From Pedobacter panaciterrae (lineage in GTDB: Bacteria; Bacteroidota; Bacteroidia; Sphingobacteriales; Sphingobacteriaceae), in NCBI RefSeq assembly GCF_013204795.1, contig NZ_JABMKW010000007.1:1-64000 (forward strand): a stretch of 64,000 nucleotides of DNA, written 5' to 3'. Position 1 is the stretch's first letter; each line of letters begins with the position of its first letter. The position numbers and the translations under genes were made by a program. The notes beneath the pieces were generated by a model that saw only the letters and a program-made list of their open reading frames with translations, ran no database searches and was not told the DNA's origin. Positions 11,986 to 50,248 of this stretch are shown piece by piece.

Positions 11986-13056
11986 ATGATAGATCGTAGT
12001 CTTTTCAATGTTGAAGACTTTTTAGTAGATAATACCTTCCAGCTATATTGTGCCGGAACAGATAAACTTTGTATTAGCTACTGGGAAAATTATATTAAAG
12101 CACATCCTGAGCAAGAGACTGTTATTGCCGAAGCAAAACGCTTGTATGTGATATTAAGTGGGAACAAGAAACCATTAAATAAACAGGTAGACCTCTTGAA
12201 AAATAATATTGAACCTCAAAATGAGGCTGATATTATCCCTATCCATAAAAATTATATGTGGCTGAAAATTGCAGCGGCGGTTCTGCTAATGGTAGGCGTT
12301 GCGGTTATCTTTAAAAATAACCCTAAAGAAAATACCCCAAAGGTTAGTTTGGTTACCAATTTTAGTACAAAAGGTGGCGAAAAGAAAAAAATCACGCTAT
12401 CGGATGGTTCTGTGGTTTTGCTTAATGCCAAAAGTACATTAACGCTCGATAAGAATTTTAATGAAAAAAACAGGGAGGTTAATTTAGTTGGAGAGGCCTT
12501 TTTTGATGTTACCCACAATAAGAGTAAGCCCTTTAAGGTACATACCGAAGATTTTGATATCAATGTGCTTGGTACCTCTTTTAATGTTAAAATATATCCG
12601 GGAGAAGCAACATCTGAAACAGTGCTGATTAAGGGCCTGATTGTGATGGAGGGAAAAGGAACCAAGGGGAGCTCTATAACTTTAAGGCCAAGTCAGAAGG
12701 TTACTTTTTATAAAAAAGTTGACGAACTTCCTAGTAACATCAAACCACAAAAACCTTCAGTTGTACATCCGCAAATAGCTATTAATCAATATACCAAAGT
12801 TAACGACAGCACAATTGTAGAAATGGCCTGGACGCAAAACAGGCTGGAGATTTTAGATCAAACTTTTGCTGAAGTTAAAGGGGACTTGGAAAGATGGTAC
12901 AACGTAGAGATTATTTTTAATGATCGTGAAGTAGAAAAATATCGTTTTACAGCAACATTTAGACATGAAAATATAGAGCAGGCATTAAAGGCATTTCAAG
13001 ACGCAGAACATTTTAAATATGAAATAAAAGGGAATCAAATTACCATATCTAAATAA
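11986..13056 (+). CDS. FecR-family anti-sigma factor
   Basis: A 356-residue inner-membrane anti-sigma protein. The cytoplasmic N-terminal region (residues 1-88) has the helical pattern expected to bind the sigma factor, one membrane segment lies near 91-109, and a periplasmic FecR domain follows (GEKKKITLSDGSVVLLNAKS, LVGEAFFDVTHNKSKPFKVH). A C-terminal STN-like domain with ERWYNVEIIFND and ITISK ends the protein. It receives the signal from the STN domain of the SusC protein encoded next and releases the sigma factor. A terminator hairpin separates it from susC. Confidence 0.93.
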   Translation: MIDRSLFNVEDFLVDNTFQLYCAGTDKLCISYWENYIKAHPEQETVIAEAKRLYVILSGNKKPLNKQVDLLKNNIEPQNEADIIPIHKNYMWLKIAAAVLLMVGVAVIFKNNPKENTPKVSLVTNFSTKGGEKKKITLSDGSVVLLNAKSTLTLDKNFNEKNREVNLVGEAFFDVTHNKSKPFKVHTEDFDINVLGTSFNVKIYPGEATSETVLIKGLIVMEGKGTKGSSITLRPSQKVTFYKKVDELPSNIKPQKPSVVHPQIAINQYTKVNDSTIVEMAWTQNRLEILDQTFAEVKGDLERWYNVEIIFNDREVEKYRFTATFRHENIEQALKAFQDAEHFKYEIKGNQITISK

Positions 13057-41923: not shown

Positions 41924-44767
41924 ATGTTCAAATTAAATACCATAACGCTGGCATTTCTGCTCAGTATTGCCTGCTTTACGCTTAATGCACAGCAAGCTAC
42001 CACTGTAAATCCAGGAACTGCAAAGGGTATTGTGAGAGATACGGCACAGAACTATGTGCTAAAATCTGCTACCGTATCTATCTATAAATCGGCCGATAGC
42101 ACCTTGTTAAGCTACCAGGTAACCAATAATTATGGGGAATTTAGCTTTAAAAACCTGCCTGTAAATGTTCTTCTAAGACTGGATATTAACAATGTAGGTT
42201 ACTATACTTCCAGAAAGACATTTACGATACCTGCGGGTAAGAATACCATTGACCTCCAGACCATTGTTGCCAACCGCAGGGACATCACGCTTGACGATGT
42301 AGTGATCACCGTGCCACCGATTAGTATGAATGGTGATACGTTAGAGTTTAATGCTGCGGCTTTTAAATTAGATAGTAATGCTGTGGTTGAGGATTTGCTT
42401 AGGCAGATACCCAACATCACCTTGTGGGGAGACGGACAGATTACGGTAAACGGTAAAGAGGTTAAAAGCTTATTGGTAAATGGAAAGTCCTTTTTTGGTG
42501 GTGATATGAAGCAGGCTACACAAAATCTGGCTAAAAATGCGGTCCAGAAAATACAGGTGTACAACAAATCAAGGAGTCAGCAAAGTACCAATCCTGCAGA
42601 TTCTACGCTGGAGATGAACATTAAACTAAAAAAAGGCAAGGATGTTGGTTTTTTTGGTAAGATTGGCGCAGGTTATGGAACAGATAAGCGTTTTGAAACG
42701 GACGCCAGTATCAATATGTTTACGCCCAAAATGCAACTTGCCGTTGTTGGCGCCATAAACAATATTAACAAGATTGCGGATAATACGCGCGATCTCCAAT
42801 CTAACAGTACGTTTAAGGGGGTTGGTACCAATGTAGAATATCAGCCTGATTTTAGGGCTGAAGGGATAACACGCCCCAGTGCACTCGGGGCAAACTTTAC
42901 CTACAATTTTATAGAAAAGCCCACGTGGGAGTTAAAAAACACCTTAAAATCTAATTACTTTTTACAAGACAAGAATACCAATTACCTAGCTGATGCTAAG
43001 ACAACTACCTCTGTTAACAGTACGGATAAGGTGATTGACAACAGCATTACCAACAATCAATCTTCTAATACCACGCAGCGATTTGATTCGAATTACGAGT
43101 ATACTAAAAAGGGGCATAATTTGAATTTCTCCCAGGAAGTAAACTTTAATCAGGGTGATAATGTAGATCAGACTTTTCGTACGGCTACTAATTTGCAGGA
43201 TGTGCTAACCAGTACAAATAATTCAATGAATACCGGAAATTACAACAATAAGAGTTTTAGGTTTGGTGGTCAGTACAGGTATTCTCCATATATCATTACA
43301 CAAACAACGCGGTTTAGGGGTTTCGAGGCCAACTATAATTTGAATACCTACAATAATGAAAGCGACCGCCTGAACCTGACTGAGTTTAAATCATTTACTG
43401 GTACTGCAGCTAATCAGAAATTTAACAGAAAGTACAACACCCTTGCGGAAGGGTTCAGACAGGAACTCAATTTAACTATACAGGATCTAAAGGGGCTGAT
43501 TTTTGGAAACAAAAAATACTCACGTATGAGCTTTGATTTAACGAACAGGTTACTGCTGAACTCTGATAAAAATAATAACAGGGTGCAGGATTTGGATACC
43601 ATAAATAACGTATACCGGACTAACGCCTATTTAAATAATCAAATAACTACGAATGTTATTGAGGAAACACCTGGGTTGAGAATAAGAAGATCTTTCTCGA
43701 AAAGTATGTCTAACCGTTATTACAAGTCCTTGTCCCTCACGTTTCATCCTAAAGAGCTATTAATTAGTCAGGATAATAAATCTGACAGGTCTTTCCAAAA
43801 CTTAAAACGCAACTACAGCCAGTTTGCCCCTGACGTAGAGATTAGTTTTTACAATAATCAATATGGGGAAACCTCGAGGAACTACTCTCTTGAGTACAGA
43901 ACAACTTTGAAGATACCTAATATCAATCAGCTTGCTCCACTAACCGACAGCACCGACGTATACAATCTTAGAAGAGGCAATATTAACCTGAAAGAATCGG
44001 TACAGCGTGAATTGTCATTCAGCTTTTACAGCGATGATCAACATAGTAAAAATACGCTTAATTACAACTTCACACTAAGGGCAGGGTTGATTGCTAACAA
44101 TATTGTAGACAGTCTTTTGATTGACGAGCAGAACAGGCGGACGGTCTATTTGGTCAATGCAGATGGGAATAAATATTTAAATGGCGAAGCGGGTATCAGG
44201 AAGGCTTTAAAGCTTAAAACATCGGAATTTCAGTTTAATTTATATGGAAACTTCAATACAGCTATAAACCCTGGGTATACCAATAGTGTATTTACTTATT
44301 CGAGTAATTTAAATACGTATTATAGCGGTAGTGTTAATTATACGTATAAGAGTTATTTGGCGGTGGCGCTTAGCCAATCGTGGTCTACCTACAAATCCAA
44401 ACAAGAGGCCTTTAACACCCAATATAGCGGAAAGAACGTTGGCACCACATTGACGGCCAGCTATAACATCACCAAGAAGTTGACGTTGAATAGCAATATC
44501 AGTAACAACAACAGTTCTTCATCGAATTCTAAAAACATTGTTTACACCATCTGGAATGCGAACCTGGTTTGTCGCTTCCTTAAAGGTAATAATGCTGAGG
44601 TCAAATTCGCGGCCCTCGATTTATTAAGGCAGAACACCAGCGTAATTAACTATGGTGATGCCAATAGTTTTACCATAGGTAGGCAAAATGTATTGACACA
44701 ATATTTTATGACCACAATTTCCTACTATCCAAGACAGTTTGGAAAGAAGGCCAAGGCTAAGAAATGA
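41924..44767 (+). CDS. outer-membrane beta-barrel protein with carboxypeptidase-regulatory and plug domains
   Basis: A 947-residue outer-membrane protein. The signal peptide ends near NAQ23. A carboxypeptidase-regulatory domain follows (about 30-110, GTAKGIVRDTAQNYVLKSAT), then a plug-like region (about 115-210, DLLRQIPNITLWGDGQITVN and GGDMKQATQNLAKNAVQKIQ), then a long barrel rich in Asn/Thr/Tyr strands of the outer-membrane barrel family 3 type. It lacks a terminal aromatic residue; the end is FGKKAKAKK. TonB-type transport or assembly is possible. It lies 6 nt after the propeller gene, so the two form one operon. There is no SusD partner. Confidence 0.82.
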   Translation: MFKLNTITLAFLLSIACFTLNAQQATTVNPGTAKGIVRDTAQNYVLKSATVSIYKSADSTLLSYQVTNNYGEFSFKNLPVNVLLRLDINNVGYYTSRKTFTIPAGKNTIDLQTIVANRRDITLDDVVITVPPISMNGDTLEFNAAAFKLDSNAVVEDLLRQIPNITLWGDGQITVNGKEVKSLLVNGKSFFGGDMKQATQNLAKNAVQKIQVYNKSRSQQSTNPADSTLEMNIKLKKGKDVGFFGKIGAGYGTDKRFETDASINMFTPKMQLAVVGAINNINKIADNTRDLQSNSTFKGVGTNVEYQPDFRAEGITRPSALGANFTYNFIEKPTWELKNTLKSNYFLQDKNTNYLADAKTTTSVNSTDKVIDNSITNNQSSNTTQRFDSNYEYTKKGHNLNFSQEVNFNQGDNVDQTFRTATNLQDVLTSTNNSMNTGNYNNKSFRFGGQYRYSPYIITQTTRFRGFEANYNLNTYNNESDRLNLTEFKSFTGTAANQKFNRKYNTLAEGFRQELNLTIQDLKGLIFGNKKYSRMSFDLTNRLLLNSDKNNNRVQDLDTINNVYRTNAYLNNQITTNVIEETPGLRIRRSFSKSMSNRYYKSLSLTFHPKELLISQDNKSDRSFQNLKRNYSQFAPDVEISFYNNQYGETSRNYSLEYRTTLKIPNINQLAPLTDSTDVYNLRRGNINLKESVQRELSFSFYSDDQHSKNTLNYNFTLRAGLIANNIVDSLLIDEQNRRTVYLVNADGNKYLNGEAGIRKALKLKTSEFQFNLYGNFNTAINPGYTNSVFTYSSNLNTYYSGSVNYTYKSYLAVALSQSWSTYKSKQEAFNTQYSGKNVGTTLTASYNITKKLTLNSNISNNNSSSSNSKNIVYTIWNANLVCRFLKGNNAEVKFAALDLLRQNTSVINYGDANSFTIGRQNVLTQYFMTTISYYPRQFGKKAKAKK

Positions 44768-45395: not shown

Positions 45396-46994
45396 TTAAA
45401 GAGCAGAAAATATAAAGGTGCTTATAGAACGCGGTGGTAGGGCAGTATCTCCAATTGGATAAGGGCGAATATTGTCATCCTGCTTTTCAGAGGTTATATA
45501 ATGCTTTTTAAGCTTTAAGGCCTGTCCTTTAAGTAGCCCTTTCAATACAAAATCAGTTTTTTTAGTTTCACTTGTGTAGTTAATTACATTTATTACAAGA
45601 CTTTTTCCATTCGGGTCTTTAAATGCAGAAACCATTACCTGCTGGGCAACCTCCATGTCATTTAAGCTGTCGCTTCTTTGTGTTTCTATACGAACCATAC
45701 CAGGGCGGATAAAAAGACTGTAATGTCCTAAGGTCCACAGATTTTTAGTAATGGTGTACTTGTTTTCAGGTTTGCTTGCTCTTTGCGGATTTAATGCGAT
45801 AAGAAAGTAACGTGGATTTAACGGATTCCCGGGCTCGTATGCATTCCAGAAATGCCAGGCAGATGCATCCCCTACGGTAAAATCATGATTAATTACCTTT
45901 GCAAGGAATAATGCATGATCCATCTCGCTTGGCTTGCCTTCGATTTTATCTTTATAACCATTACCAAGCATAGAGTATTCTGATTGCCAATATTCCAGAC
46001 CATTATATTTCTTTAAAGTATCTCTTAAAGATCTTCTTGTGTTTATTAGCGTACTGTCGCCGTTTTCTGTAAAATATCCATGGCCTTCAACAAACTTTGT
46101 ACTATTGCTAAAACCGCCTATGTATAAAGGGCTTTTTGGATTCCAGAAGCTGTCTATCTGGCGTGATGTCCGTCCCTTGTCAGCATACAAAAAATCAAGC
46201 TGACCGGCTTCGGTGGTCAGGATTTTTGTACTAAGCTTTTGCTTCTGTAAACTGATATTTAAAGATTTAATGGTTTGATACATTTCCTCATTTGTCCATG
46301 GACTGCCTTCCTGATTAGATTGCTTTAACCAATCCCATTGGGGCTCATTTATTGGACTTATGTAGTTAAAACGAAGGCCCTCTTTATCATAATGCTTTAT
46401 TACTTCGGTCAGGAAGTTTGCATAAGCATCATATTTATCGGGCCTTAAATTTGTAGAGCCATCTTTTTGCGACTTGTACCCACGGCCATTCTTGTTAAAC
46501 TGTACCGGAGGGCTGTTTACAAATGCAATCAGGTCTTTTACTCCATAATTTTTTGCCTGCCGTAACATCCAGGTGTATCCTTGCTGTTTGCTCCAGTCGT
46601 AAGTTCCATCAGGAGATAAAAAACACTCTACTCTGCGCGAAGGATCTGCAATTCCACTACTGTCGCCTTGTTCAGCAGTACCCCCGCCAATATTAAACCT
46701 CCAAGCAGATAAGCCGATCCCCTTTGGCCTGCCATCTTTTTCAAATCCCCTGCTAAATAACAATTCTGCAATGTGTTGTTTTTCGGCCAATGGCCATTGC
46801 TTGCCAATTTCCTCGGTATACCAGCAACCAGAACCGCCGATGTTGTGTATTTGTTGTGCAGTTTTGTTGAGCAGAAGGGTAAATTTAATTGGTTTCTGAT
46901 CTTGCGAGAATGAACTTAGGGCACTGGCTAAAAGAAAAGTGCACAGGGTAATTTTCCTAATAAAGACACTGGAAAGGAGTAGCTTAATTTTCAT
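45396..46994 (-). CDS. glycoside hydrolase family 30-type enzyme
   Basis: A protein of about 532 residues with a signal peptide. The TIM-barrel core carries NIGGSGCWYTEE, the acid/base glutamate in YISPINEPQWDW (Glu217 from the chosen start) and the nucleophile in YWQSEYSML (Glu339), followed by a C-terminal beta domain. The spacing fits GH30, whose members act as beta-1,6-galactanases, glucosylceramidases or xylanases; the subfamily cannot be settled here, though the NEPQWDW form resembles beta-1,6-galactanase types. I start at ATG 46994 (MKIKLLLSS), since the ATG at 47030 puts 12 extra residues ahead of the signal. Divergent from the DUF4185-like gene by 66 nt. Confidence 0.85.
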   Translation of the reverse strand: MKIKLLLSSVFIRKITLCTFLLASALSSFSQDQKPIKFTLLLNKTAQQIHNIGGSGCWYTEEIGKQWPLAEKQHIAELLFSRGFEKDGRPKGIGLSAWRFNIGGGTAEQGDSSGIADPSRRVECFLSPDGTYDWSKQQGYTWMLRQAKNYGVKDLIAFVNSPPVQFNKNGRGYKSQKDGSTNLRPDKYDAYANFLTEVIKHYDKEGLRFNYISPINEPQWDWLKQSNQEGSPWTNEEMYQTIKSLNISLQKQKLSTKILTTEAGQLDFLYADKGRTSRQIDSFWNPKSPLYIGGFSNSTKFVEGHGYFTENGDSTLINTRRSLRDTLKKYNGLEYWQSEYSMLGNGYKDKIEGKPSEMDHALFLAKVINHDFTVGDASAWHFWNAYEPGNPLNPRYFLIALNPQRASKPENKYTITKNLWTLGHYSLFIRPGMVRIETQRSDSLNDMEVAQQVMVSAFKDPNGKSLVINVINYTSETKKTDFVLKGLLKGQALKLKKHYITSEKQDDNIRPYPIGDTALPPRSISTFIFSAL

Positions 46995-47060
46995 AGATAC
47001 AATATTAATAATTGACAGCTTAATATACATATAACTCTACTTTTAATATATTTATACCTG

Positions 47061-48257
47061 ATGAATAGACTTAAATTTACCTCAGGCATAAAAGAAATCG
47101 TTTTGTTATGTTGTTTGGCCGGCTTTTTTAGCAATTCCAATGCTCAGGATTTGACGAATATAAAATTTACGGCTACGGAGGCTACAGAGTGGACAAATTT
47201 ATTTGTAAGAAATAATGGATGGTTTGGCGGTGATGGTATCTATACTATTCCATTAAATGGGGTAGAATCAGGTAAACCAGAAGCTAAGAAAACCCTCTTC
47301 ATTTTTAGTGATAGTATGATTGGGAACATTAAAGATGATAAAATGGAGCCCGGAGCTAAAATGATCCATAATAGCATAGCGATATTAAAAGGTACAAAAC
47401 CTGTAAAGGACAACATAACTTTTTTTTGGAAAAACGACCAGAAGGATAACCCGGAAACTGTATTTGTGCCGAAAACTCCCCTAACAGGCCCTACAGATTA
47501 TTATTGGCTTGGCGATGGTTTTGTAAACCAGGAGCAAAATAATGCCATCTATATTTTTGGTTACAGGGTTAAACAGGTAAGTGATGGCGCTTTTGGCTTT
47601 TCTGAGGTAGGTAATACGCTAATCAAAATCGCCGAAAAAGAAGAGCCTCCTTATAAAACCTTTGAACAGAAAGATACTCCATTTTATTTAAGCAGTAATG
47701 AAACCGAAAAGGAAATGGCATCTTTTGGTGCAGGTATATTCGTAAACACAGCCAAGGCCGGAGCGCCTGGGCCTGATGGATATGTTTACGTTTATGGGGT
47801 AAAAGGGATGGCTAAAAAATTGCTGGTAGCAAGGGTAAAACCTAAAGAATTTGATGATTACGCTAAGTGGAACTTCTGGGATGGGGCAACGTGGAATGCA
47901 GATATTAAGAAGGCTGAAGCAATAACAGATCAGGTTTCAAATGAGCTTAGTTTATCGGTATTGCCAGATGGGAGATATGCGTTAATTTTTCAGCAGGGTG
48001 GCATGGGAAGAGCAGTAGGGATGCGTTTAGGGAAAAGCCCTATCGGGCCTTTTGGGCCAATAATAAAATTGTGGGACAGCTCTGATGCGTTAAAAAAGAA
48101 AAGTTATTTTTCTTATAATGCTAAGGCTCATCCAGGTTTATCTGAAAAAGGAGAACTTTTAATTAGTTATAATGTTAATTCTTTTGATTTCTTTAAAGAT
48201 CTTGAAACGGATCCTCAGTTGTACAGGCCCCGGTTCATTAAGATAAAATTTAACTAA
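47061..48257 (+). CDS. exported DUF4185-like beta-propeller protein
   Basis: A 398-residue exported protein with signal peptide (cleavage after SNSNA). The repeated propeller strands KKTLFIFSDSMIG, NAIYIFGYRVKQ, GYVYVYGVKGMAKKLLVARV and the closing ISYNVNSFDF with YRPRFIKIKF fit DUF4185, a five-bladed-propeller family related in fold to glycosidases of the GH43/GH32 type. A catalytic role is not proven. It is divergent from GH30 and followed 21 nt later by a FecR-type gene, suggesting a small glycan-use group. Confidence 0.72.
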   Translation: MNRLKFTSGIKEIVLLCCLAGFFSNSNAQDLTNIKFTATEATEWTNLFVRNNGWFGGDGIYTIPLNGVESGKPEAKKTLFIFSDSMIGNIKDDKMEPGAKMIHNSIAILKGTKPVKDNITFFWKNDQKDNPETVFVPKTPLTGPTDYYWLGDGFVNQEQNNAIYIFGYRVKQVSDGAFGFSEVGNTLIKIAEKEEPPYKTFEQKDTPFYLSSNETEKEMASFGAGIFVNTAKAGAPGPDGYVYVYGVKGMAKKLLVARVKPKEFDDYAKWNFWDGATWNADIKKAEAITDQVSNELSLSVLPDGRYALIFQQGGMGRAVGMRLGKSPIGPFGPIIKLWDSSDALKKKSYFSYNAKAHPGLSEKGELLISYNVNSFDFFKDLETDPQLYRPRFIKIKFN

Positions 48258-48278
48258 AACTGAAAAGGAAGTGTAAAA

Positions 48279-49247
48279 ATGAGTGAAGAACCAGAAAAGA
48301 AGCCAATATTTTACGACAGGTGGGCATTCAGATATTTAGCAATAGCCTGTTTGGCGTTAATAGCGTGTGCGATTGGGGCAATTTTTTATAACCATCATCC
48401 AAAACCCTTAAAAGAAAACAGGTTTGCTAAGAGAGACATTCATGCAGGCAGCAGCAGGGCTATATTAACTTTGGCAAGCGGTAAAAAGATTAGTCTTGAT
48501 GAAGCGCCTAATGGAGTTCTGGCTGAGGAGTCTGGGGCAAGTATTGTGAGGACAGGAAGCGGACAAATTACCTATGCTGTTCATGAAAAAGCGCTTAATT
48601 CTGATACGGTTAAAAATGTAGGGATTAATAATCTTGAGACTCCCTTGGGTGGCCAATATCAGGTTCGTTTACCAGACGGCACTAAAGTGTGGTTAAATGC
48701 GGCCTCTAAATTAACTTATCCGGCATCATTTGATCCAGGTGCTGAGCGTAAAGTAGAGCTAAAGGGTGAAGCTTATTTTGAGATCGCTCAGATTGCCAAT
48801 ACGCCATTTGTGGTATTTTCTGGAAAGCAGCGCATTGAGGTTGAGGCTGCGCAACTTAACATTAGTAGCTATGTTAATGATGAGGCCATAAAAACTACGC
48901 TGTTGGAGGGGATGGGCAGAATTAATTCCGATAATATCATAAAGTCGGGCCAGCAGGCTATAAATAAAAAAGGCAATTTGGAAATCATTCCTGCAAATAC
49001 CAAGGAAGCAGTTGCATGGAAAAACGGGCTCTTCTTATTTGAAGATGAAAGCCTGGAAACTATAATGAAAAGTATTTCCAGATGGTACAACGTTGAAATA
49101 ATTTATGCTAACGAAAACGCACCTAAAGAATTATTTAGTTTATCTGTTTCAAGGTTTGATAACATCTCTTCTACTTTAAAATCTTTAGAGAATACAGGTT
49201 TTGTACGGTTCAAAATAAAGGGGAGAAAAATAACCGTTCTTCGCTAA
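48279..49247 (+). CDS. FecR-domain protein lacking the sigma-binding region
   Basis: A 322-residue inner-membrane protein. Only about 16 residues precede the single membrane segment (17-37), so the roughly 80-residue cytoplasmic anti-sigma part seen in the other FecR of this window is missing. The periplasmic FecR domain is complete (GGQYQVRLPDGTKVWLNAAS, GEAYFEIAQIANTPFVVFSG), as is the C-terminal STN-like domain (MKSISRWYNVEIIYANENAP, ITVLR). No sigma factor or SusC lies nearby. It begins 21 nt after the DUF4185-like gene. Either it works with a partner that supplies the cytoplasmic part, or it is a periplasmic decoy or scaffold. Confidence 0.82.
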   Translation: MSEEPEKKPIFYDRWAFRYLAIACLALIACAIGAIFYNHHPKPLKENRFAKRDIHAGSSRAILTLASGKKISLDEAPNGVLAEESGASIVRTGSGQITYAVHEKALNSDTVKNVGINNLETPLGGQYQVRLPDGTKVWLNAASKLTYPASFDPGAERKVELKGEAYFEIAQIANTPFVVFSGKQRIEVEAAQLNISSYVNDEAIKTTLLEGMGRINSDNIIKSGQQAINKKGNLEIIPANTKEAVAWKNGLFLFEDESLETIMKSISRWYNVEIIYANENAPKELFSLSVSRFDNISSTLKSLENTGFVRFKIKGRKITVLR

Positions 49248-49410
49248 GTCTGGCATCTGTTGCGAAAAGCAACAGCGGCTAGGTCTCATCGAAGAAGGTG
49301 ATTTTTAAGGAAAGTAGGGGGCTATCTAGTATTGCCAGTTGAACAGACAGTATTAATTATCATCAATTTATATTAACATAAGAAGGTGGTTTGCCATGCT
49401 ATTTTCCTTA

Positions 49411-49458
49411 AATTCAGTGTCAGAGATGGGGCCTAGGAACCATCTCTGACACTGAATT
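49411..49458. terminator. 19-bp perfect hairpin between FecR-like and cdaA genes
   Basis: The stem AATTCAGTGTCAGAGATGG (49411-49429) pairs perfectly with 49440-49458 around a 10-nt loop. It overlaps the cdaA stop codon. Neither strand has a T tract, so it may be a bidirectional terminator of weak intrinsic type or an mRNA-end stabiliser. Confidence 0.6.
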
Positions 49459-50248
49459 AAAAATCTTTATTTAGAAGTTTCTCCAACTCTCCAAAAGATA
49501 CATTCATTCTTACACGGCCTTGTTTAGCATAGGCAATCTCTCCGGTTTCTTCTGAAACAATTACTGCAACGGCATCCGTAGTTTCAGACACGCCAATCCC
49601 GGCTCTATGACGAAGACCAAACTGAGGTGGTAATTTATCATTATCAGTTAAAGGGAGGATACAACTTGCACTTTTGATTTTGTTTTCGGCAATAACAACT
49701 GCTCCATCATGTAATGGGCTGTATTTTTGAAAGATGCTCTCCAGCAATCGTTTTGATATTTTTGAATCTATTAGCTCACAACTGTTGGCAAAAAGCTGAT
49801 CGTCGTAAAACTTTACAAATACAATTAGTGCTCCGGTTCTTGATTTTTTCATGCTCTTGCAAGCATCAATGATAGGTTTTATCCTTACTAAATTGTCGCG
49901 CTCAATATTTTTACTTCCAAATAAATAGCCCCACCAGGCTTTGTTTTGCTGTAGAAAAGTATTTTTCCCGATGAGTAATAAGAAGCGCCTGATCTCTGGC
50001 TGGAAAATAACAATTAGGGCTATTATCCCCACACTCATAAATTGGTTAATGATAGTGGATAGTAAATTCATTTTTAATGCATCTACAACCCAATGTATTA
50101 CCAATATGATTACCATACCTAACAACAGGTTTACTGCGAGGGTGTTCTTAATCAGGTTGTAGATGTAATAGATAATTAAAGCGACAAGAATAATATCTAC
50201 CGCATCTGTTACTGTTACCTTTAAGAAATCAAATTCTAAGCCTTTCAT
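49457..50248 (-). CDS. cdaA: diadenylate cyclase CdaA
   Basis: A membrane-bound enzyme of about 263 residues that makes cyclic di-AMP from two ATP. Three N-terminal hydrophobic segments precede the DisA_N catalytic domain with SPLHDGAVVI (DGA motif) and GLRHRAGIGVSE (RHR motif), followed by a TDAVAVIVSEETG segment. I start at ATG 50248 (MKGLEFDF), 20 nt past the folP stop; the longer frame to 50305 runs back into folP. c-di-AMP controls potassium and osmotic balance and wall integrity in other bacteria. It is probably co-transcribed with folP. Confidence 0.93.
   Translation of the reverse strand: MKGLEFDFLKVTVTDAVDIILVALIIYYIYNLIKNTLAVNLLLGMVIILVIHWVVDALKMNLLSTIINQFMSVGIIALIVIFQPEIRRFLLLIGKNTFLQQNKAWWGYLFGSKNIERDNLVRIKPIIDACKSMKKSRTGALIVFVKFYDDQLFANSCELIDSKISKRLLESIFQKYSPLHDGAVVIAENKIKSASCILPLTDNDKLPPQFGLRHRAGIGVSETTDAVAVIVSEETGEIAYAKQGRVRMNVSFGELEKLLNKDF

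Follow-up and report, generated by a model that had tools for sequence, protein, structure and literature searches.

A gene of Pedobacter panaciterrae (48279-49247 of the window, i.e., the whole 64,000-nucleotide stretch analyzed here) codes for a 322-residue FecR-like protein that is a FecR by fold and ancestry but lacks the defining domain of an anti-sigma factor. FecR proteins in general are regarded as anti-sigma or pro-sigma factors. This one has lost the sigma-binding part and the self-cleavage site, the rest being mostly preserved, and it probably does a job that has not yet been described.

A FecR-like protein with hardly any cytoplasmic part

The cytoplasmic anti-sigma domain (ASD), normally about 80 residues, is absent from the short FecR. 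Only about 16 residues precede the membrane helix, and the start is identical in all six orthologues. The other FecR of the window (11986-13056, 356 residues, locus L016) has ca. 92 residues ahead of its hydropathy peak, which agrees with the first-pass annotation of this DNA, where about 16 residues had been set against about 88. In the short protein the hydropathy peak begins at residue 20, with the helix at about residues 17-38, and the AlphaFold2 (AF2) model (mean pLDDT 80.7) has a helix at 14-39. That annotation had also held that the choice of start could not explain the difference, as the DUF4185 gene ends 21 nt upstream. Indeed, no start can add a cytoplasmic domain, because the frame is closed immediately upstream by TAA (48255) and TGA (48261); the remaining two frames across 312 nt of the junction contain many stops. 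A sequencing error is unlikely, since the orthologues in five other species have an equal start, an equal 21-nt gap and no frame break. The six concordant orthologues and the upstream stops together rule out an error or frameshift, so that two of the findings the first-pass annotation had named as fatal to its idea, a sequencing error or an upstream frame restoring a sigma-binding region, are excluded. Neither is there a sigma domain on the same chain, as in IutY of P. putida, described as a sigma/anti-sigma fusion (PMC5411451): the cytoplasmic part is those ca. 16 residues, and the Pfam scan gave no sigma match.

The DUF4185 gene and the short FecR lie in a common frame; of the five species displayed, three have a single stop between the genes and two have two. 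A read-through fusion was considered and rejected, since an extracytoplasmic DUF4185 part would put the FecR part inside the cell, and we take the shared frame as chance.

Table 1. Features of the short FecR locus (window coordinates) and of two helix-only relatives (coordinates of their own loci)
Feature	Position	Strand	Basis or remark
GH30 gene, divergent neighbor kept with the DUF4185-FecR pair	45396..47030	-	Pfam, orthologous loci
DUF4185 gene (GH183-like), 21 nt upstream of the short FecR	47061..48257	+	Pfam; spacing equal in 6/6 species
In-frame stops TAA (48255) and TGA (48261), blocking N-terminal extension	48255..48263	+	TAA is the DUF4185 gene's own stop
ASD-less FecR-like gene, 322 aa	48279..49247	+	ORF, Pfam, orthologues in 5 other species
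Short cytoplasmic tail, residues 1-16, FY motif (F11 Y12)	48279..48326	+	Sequence comparison
Highly conserved transmembrane helix, residues 17-38 (FxYLxxACxAL)	48327..48392	+	Conservation, AF2 model
Juxtamembrane and middle periplasmic region, residues 39-118	48393..48632	+	
FecR domain (PF04773), residues 119-211	48633..48911	+	Pfam; fold matches 4m0h/4m0n, 6ovk_R
Residues 190-191 (Ala-Ala), place of the lost Gly-Thr self-cleavage site	48846..48851	+	Alignment
FecR_C / STN-like domain (PF16344), residues 252-320	49032..49238	+	Pfam, fold search
Residue 288 (Leu), place of the conserved docking-edge Gly	49140..49142	+	Alignment; FoxR G293 equated
27-nt inverted repeat (89%) between the convergent short FecR and 49457-50305 genes	49408..49461	.	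Terminator-like
Helix-only protein, 82 aa	L220 8543-8791	+	Adjoins gatB (GatB_N 410.9 bits)
Helix-only protein, 89 aa	L221 8945-9214	-	Adjoins gatB by resemblance

Genomic neighborhood and census of FecR proteins

All six Pedobacter orthologous loci agree in the start, in the 21 nt that follow DUF4185 and in having GH30 as a divergent neighbor (neighbors in L061-L064 were judged from the beginnings of their sequences). The DUF4185 gene and the short FecR probably share an operon. As the DUF4185/GH183 family is described as including endo-D-arabinofuranases (PMC10115798), a link of the short FecR to glycan handling through this neighbor is possible. Downstream, the inverted repeat is perhaps a two-way terminator.

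The first-pass annotation had seen no sigma factor or SusC nearby, and wider searches gave the same picture. Among the ORFs between 38279 and 59247, a ten-sequence sigma profile (E 1e-5) found no sigma gene and a search with six SusC proteins (E 1e-10) no SusC gene; neither was found in the flanks of the five other orthologous loci, where the single weak sigma-profile match (L180) is a response regulator by Pfam. An outer-membrane-type protein of 947 residues is encoded 3.5 kb upstream (41924-44767), with CarboxypepD_reg at 32.5 bits (over the cut-off), OMP_b-brl_3 at 23.8 bits (under it) and no STN.

This isolation is exceptional within the genome. An ECF sigma gene lies within 4 kb of 35 of its 39 FecRs and an STN in a neighboring frame accompanies 33, and the short FecR is the only one with neither a sigma-r4 nor an STN hit within 4 kb; each of the other 38 has one or both. 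This test used 68 of 85 sigma-r4 and 35 of 55 STN hits, and its STN part was repeated with all 55; weak sigma hits, hits of the FecR frames themselves and second hits were left out, none of them within 4 kb of the short FecR. The censuses of single genomes (39 and 44 FecRs) served as a control against the uneven sampling of loci, and in them every other FecR with a readable start has at least 55 residues before the hydropathy peak (38/38 and, in the second genome, 42/42).

Among 16 other DUF4185 loci (three of them short contig ends), four have DUF4185 directly beside or inside sigma-FecR cassettes (L169, L174, L175 and L176; sigma domains were checked in L169, L174 and L176). In L176 (7336-11136), a DUF4185 gene stands between ECF sigma and full-length FecR genes and is followed by a second sigma-FecR-SusC set. 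We discarded this arrangement as the ancestral setting, as its FecR is only 36% identical to that of the window, below many unrelated full-length FecRs, and no direct ancestor was found among the DUF4185 loci of the 16 other genomes.

A FecR periplasmic fold

Both periplasmic domains of a FecR are present, at nearly full domain length, with 44.6 bits for FecR (PF04773, cut-off 24) and 75.5 bits for the C-terminal STN-like FecR_C (PF16344, cut-off 24.4). When the predicted model was searched with Foldseek, the closest solved fold was 4m0h (E 3.7e-19, TM 0.88 by target), and PupR solved with PupB (6ovk_R) was matched at E 1.3e-13. The short FecR is thus predicted to be a complete FecR periplasmic fold on a helix with almost no part inside the cell. 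The nearest solved fold belongs to BDI_1681 of Parabacteroides distasonis (4m0h, 4m0n), a putative anti-sigma factor, whose deposited sequences read G-G in one entry and G-A in the other at the self-cleavage site; we infer that these are engineered changes of Gly-Thr, as if the Thr had been altered to get an uncut protein.

Like FecR of Escherichia coli, FoxR of P. aeruginosa and PupR of P. capeferrum, the short FecR has a predicted single helix, a periplasmic FecR part and a C-terminal STN-like domain, and PupR (6ovk) is matched both by Foldseek and in sequence. Unlike them, it has no anti-sigma domain, no linked sigma gene, no linked TonB-dependent transducer, no Gly-Thr site and no Gly at the STN edge, and its conserved helix is specific to a subfamily. 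Across 185 ordinary and same-helix full-length FecRs (the latter share this helix, see below), 65 positions are conserved in at least 75%, and 56 of them are still represented in the window's group, i.e., the six orthologues. The nine missing from all six members are residues 91, 189-192 (the region of the self-cleavage motif), 213, 221, 223 and 288. The first-pass view that the periplasmic parts are complete is therefore right about the fold but not about the Gly-Thr self-cleavage site and the STN-edge Gly, both of them functional sites.

Loss of the self-cleavage site

The self-cleaving bond of E. coli FecR is reported as Gly181-Thr182, a site kept in several anti-sigma factors (PMC8144685), and the translation of the K-12 gene puts these residues in ALGTEF. 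At the equivalent place the six orthologues read AA, AG or VG. In a 203-row alignment, Gly-Thr is found in all 190 FecRs with a cytoplasmic domain (182/182 ordinary full-length, 3/3 intact same-helix and 5/5 fusion proteins) and in 4 of the 13 without; beyond the window's group, the pair is replaced in L193 (EA), L189 (NA) and L194 (AG). The alignment holds 203 distinct FecRs of the 204 found (L274, with a run of N at its start, was omitted) and over-represents the same-helix subfamily, as loci were fetched by similarity to the window protein or its tail and helix. The two-genome census, made by motif pattern, gave Gly-Thr in 38/39 and 43/44 FecRs, the exceptions being the two short ones and the pattern being present in every other FecR (38/38 and 43/43).

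Fisher's test of ASD against Gly-Thr gives p = 5e-13, a value that treats related sequences as independent and is no true probability. By parsimony there were three changes for ASD loss and two for Gly-Thr loss, counts that are not phylogenetically independent, and a phylogenetic test of the two losses has only two or three independent pairs. Outside the compared set, Gly-Thr is not strictly tied to output through an ASD, because the PupR sequence in 6ovk has no Gly-Thr although PupR has an ASD (its authors describe the self-cleavage site as nonconserved) and because FoxR without self-cleavage is reported to retain about 70% of its signaling activity (PMC9249621). Within the compared Bacteroidota, only FecRs without the cytoplasmic domain lack the site, suggesting that the cut is important for releasing the cytoplasmic part.

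The STN docking edge and possible receptor partners

At the docking edge of the STN-like domain, 88% of the 185 full-length FecRs have Gly, while all six members of the window's group have Leu. Residue 288 aligns with Gly282 of E. coli FecR, in LSGTF; FoxR itself is not in the alignment, and we equate the position with its Ser292-Gly293 by the Ser-Gly pair and the place in the STN domain. A change of FoxR Gly293 was reported to abolish binding to FoxA in two-hybrid tests (PMC11637429). Judged from this Gly-to-Leu replacement, binding of a transducer signaling domain has possibly been lost in the window's group. The other ASD-less FecRs retain the Gly in six of seven cases, and all five fusions have lost it. 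These six, and the four ASD-less proteins that keep Gly-Thr, may have ordinary receptor binding.

The main rival reading, which we consider rather unlikely, is that the short FecR is a decoy whose periplasmic part binds the STN domains of SusC transporters paired with other FecRs. The classical model would predict damped signaling. A newer one, in which the receptor domain shields FecR from proteolysis, would instead predict raised sigma activity. The FecR and FecR_C domains and the predicted match to PupR solved with PupB fit such a role, an excess of receptor signaling domain is reported to block signaling (PMC9249621, PMC11637429), and targets are not lacking, with twenty frames of more than 850 residues having an STN match over the Pfam cut-off in the genome (31 counting weak ones). 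Against it stand the Leu at the STN edge in all six orthologues and a conserved helix, kept even in helix-only proteins, that a decoy would leave unexplained. Moreover, no FecR-less STN transporter was found among the 55 STN hits of the genome (E <= 1). Only four hits have no FecR within 4 kb, and all were discarded as non-transporters: two in one secretin (Pfam Secretin, 127.1 bits), a weak one in a photolyase gene and a weak one in an 86-residue frame. Short FecRs in which Gly-Thr and the STN-edge Gly persist are more plausible decoys than the window's group.

Purifying selection

Orthologues at E <= 1e-100 were present in 5 of 145 genomes of the genus, including that of the window, and further records raise this to six distinct species. 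Identity to the window protein is 95% (94.7%) for Pedobacter sp. V48, 80% for P. panaciterrae O48 and 72% for both Pedobacter sp. B4-66 and P. foliorum. Over the 15 pairs of orthologues, dN/dS (Nei-Gojobori) ranges from 0.072 to 0.184, most dS values being high; the close, unsaturated pair with V48 has a dS of 0.275 and a dN/dS of 0.093. Compared with the other FecRs shared by these two genomes, the short FecR has the third lowest dN/dS among 22 usable pairs (range 0.024-0.366). For this control, 31 of 39 and 31 of 44 FecRs were used and gave 24 reciprocal best pairs, of which one was a 45% identical non-ortholog and one met an assembly gap. The short FecR is under purifying selection, within the range of intact FecR orthologues. 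Other short FecRs gave 0.14-0.22 in three pairs, with dS saturated in two.

These values largely refute the idea of a decaying relic, left after deletion of a sigma gene, which we regard as extremely improbable. The DUF4185 genes beside or inside sigma-FecR cassettes do make a lost sigma gene plausible, and the helix-only proteins could be a further step of decay. However, a dN/dS of about 0.1 at 94.7% identity to V48 is like that of intact FecRs, and most of the positions conserved in full-length FecRs are still represented.

A subfamily with a common membrane helix

Searched with a nine-row profile (A2) of the tail and helix, the 145 genomes of the genus gave 22 matches of at least 53 bits, the next one scoring 39.6 bits; eight of the 22 were themselves among the rows used to build it. 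In 399 sampled genomes of the family, tail and helix hits at E <= 1e-8 came from only one of 25 genera, Pedobacter (up to 43 candidates were scored per genome in the genus and up to 15 in the family). The 22 matches comprise five window-type proteins, seven other short FecRs (L189-L194 and L196), three intact members with an ASD and adjoining sigma and SusC genes (L217, L218 and L222), five fusions and two helix-only proteins. Counting P. panaciterrae O48, there are 13 short FecRs, all with the helix motif, and all were read from the first possible start, which rules out an overlooked longer N terminus. In L194, the longest of them, the hydropathy peak is preceded by 51 residues at most, and every motif-less FecR of the table has 55 or more, except the row with the run of N. 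The search for other short-N-terminus FecRs and their neighbors, proposed in the first-pass annotation, thus leads to a single subfamily with a conserved helix. Relatives with a linked sigma gene, which it had regarded as evidence against its idea, do exist. They are the three intact members and, among the seven other short FecRs, the one of L182; there the sigma gene adjoins a full-length FecR of its own.

Ten helix positions are identical in all 23 sequences compared, nine of them being wholly or nearly fixed by the motif expression that picked 21 of the rows; all 20 FecR hits of at least 53 bits in the profile search satisfy this expression. At a periplasmic identity of 0.35-0.50, same-helix pairs are 54-62% identical over a helix window of 26 residues and other FecR pairs 25-27%, an excess that is partly by construction, as the expression fixes ca. 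1/3 of that window. Among the six members of the window's group, mean pairwise identity peaks in the helix (0.92 versus 0.64-0.86 elsewhere); at the distance of V48 the helix is 0.95 identical, no better than in ordinary FecRs, where 0.95-1.0 is frequent. A single origin of all ASD-less FecRs was not rejected at 0.05 (AU p 0.059), although the best tree splits them, and neither was a single clade of all same-helix rows (AU p 0.278). For these tests five long-branch rows were dropped and the full-length rows thinned to 36, and support is poor for many of the deep branches in the periplasmic tree.

The helix might also be read as a signal peptide or lipoprotein signal, with the FecR and STN-like parts released or lipid anchored as a periplasmic binding protein. 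A short basic tail precedes a hydrophobic stretch, the helix Cys is present in 23/23 sequences and AxA-like residues can be seen by eye near the helix end. Nevertheless, the stretch is ca. 20 residues long, the same helix is internal in the ASD-bearing L217, L218 and L222, and a Phe twelve residues after the Cys is kept in 23/23, all of which make this improbable. We deem it very improbable that the protein is half of a split FecR, with the anti-sigma module supplied by another protein: the conserved F11 and Y12 of the tail could be an interaction site, but inspection of the genes flanking the six loci revealed no candidate module, and the Gly-Thr site of the ASD-bearing relatives is lost.

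The five fusions (L199-L203, 469-482 residues) are found in the Pedobacter genomes G081, G100, G128, G114 and G142. Their first 128-142 residues match residues 1-138 of the L217 sigma factor (47-49% identity), region 4 not being covered, and from residue 77-89 on they match the L217 FecR from near its first residue, so that the matches overlap and the junction is uncertain. In the two tested, Sigma70_r2 scored 18.6 and 18.1 bits (cut-off 24) and Pfam reported no region-4 family. No SusC was found in the flanks of the five, and dN/dS was about 0.05 and 0.10 in the two pairs computed. They appear as orphan proteins made of sigma region 2, the FecR cytoplasmic domain, the helix and the periplasmic part. 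Like IutY, they join a sigma part and a FecR in one chain; they differ from it in matching region 2 and not region 4, and the window protein has no sigma part at all.

The two helix-only proteins (L220 and L221) keep the tail and helix, 58% identical to the window protein over 41-48 residues, and have no FecR domains. In L107/L214 the gatB neighborhood holds a short FecR instead. Between the two, pN/pS was 0.138/0.860 for tail and helix (45 codons) and 0.497/0.956 for the remaining 36 codons, a pattern that in sequence terms indicates purifying selection in the tail and helix part. A small divergent gene for a protein of 160-163 residues with a lipoprotein-like start adjoins the subfamily FecRs in L181, L182, L183, L215, L217 and L219. 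It is kept with or without sigma and SusC, and its L217 copy has no Pfam match.

A possible function through the membrane helix

We give an even chance to the reading that the short FecR is a functional FecR paralogue uncoupled from sigma control, which acts by its periplasmic part and helix. It would cross the inner membrane, its tail in the cytoplasm. As there is no ASD left to be released, self-cleavage would no longer be needed, and the Gly-Thr site would have decayed. Periplasmic binding would then be coupled not to sigma release but to specific packing of the helix with a putative inner-membrane partner or with itself, a packing that we infer from conservation. We place the output in the helix mainly because the smallest relatives have kept little else. 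The presence of the helix in intact members and, nearly alone, in the 82-89-residue proteins suggests a second, helix-borne role that would predate the loss of sigma output. Of the two roles offered by the first-pass annotation, a sensor with a new output remains viable, as the protein is no artifact, is conserved, shows purifying selection and has neither a sigma nor a SusC gene linked to it; that of a competitor for SusC signaling domains is weakened by the Leu in 6/6 and by the failure to find a FecR-less STN transporter. A new output fits the short FecR better.

More broadly, and only tentatively, there may be a FecR-derived class with the transmembrane helix as its output, recognizing a specific inner-membrane partner under periplasmic control. 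This doubtful but possible role would already have existed in intact sigma-FecR-SusC members and outlasted two or three apparent losses of sigma coupling, even in proteins of 82-89 residues that are hardly more than the helix. The losses of ASD and Gly-Thr rest on two or three apparent events. A search by title and the start of the abstract in the open-access literature found no paper on FecRs lacking the anti-sigma domain; subscription journals lay mostly outside it, so this is no proof of novelty.

The ASD-less lineage is a natural experiment on what Gly-Thr self-cleavage is for. If the proposed class is real, the loss of the site in parallel with the ASD would show self-cleavage to be a means of ASD release. 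Domain-based annotation would probably label the short FecRs as anti-sigma factors, likely in error where the window's group is concerned. A lineage that is under selection without its sigma-binding part means that the periplasmic and membrane parts of a FecR can have value alone.
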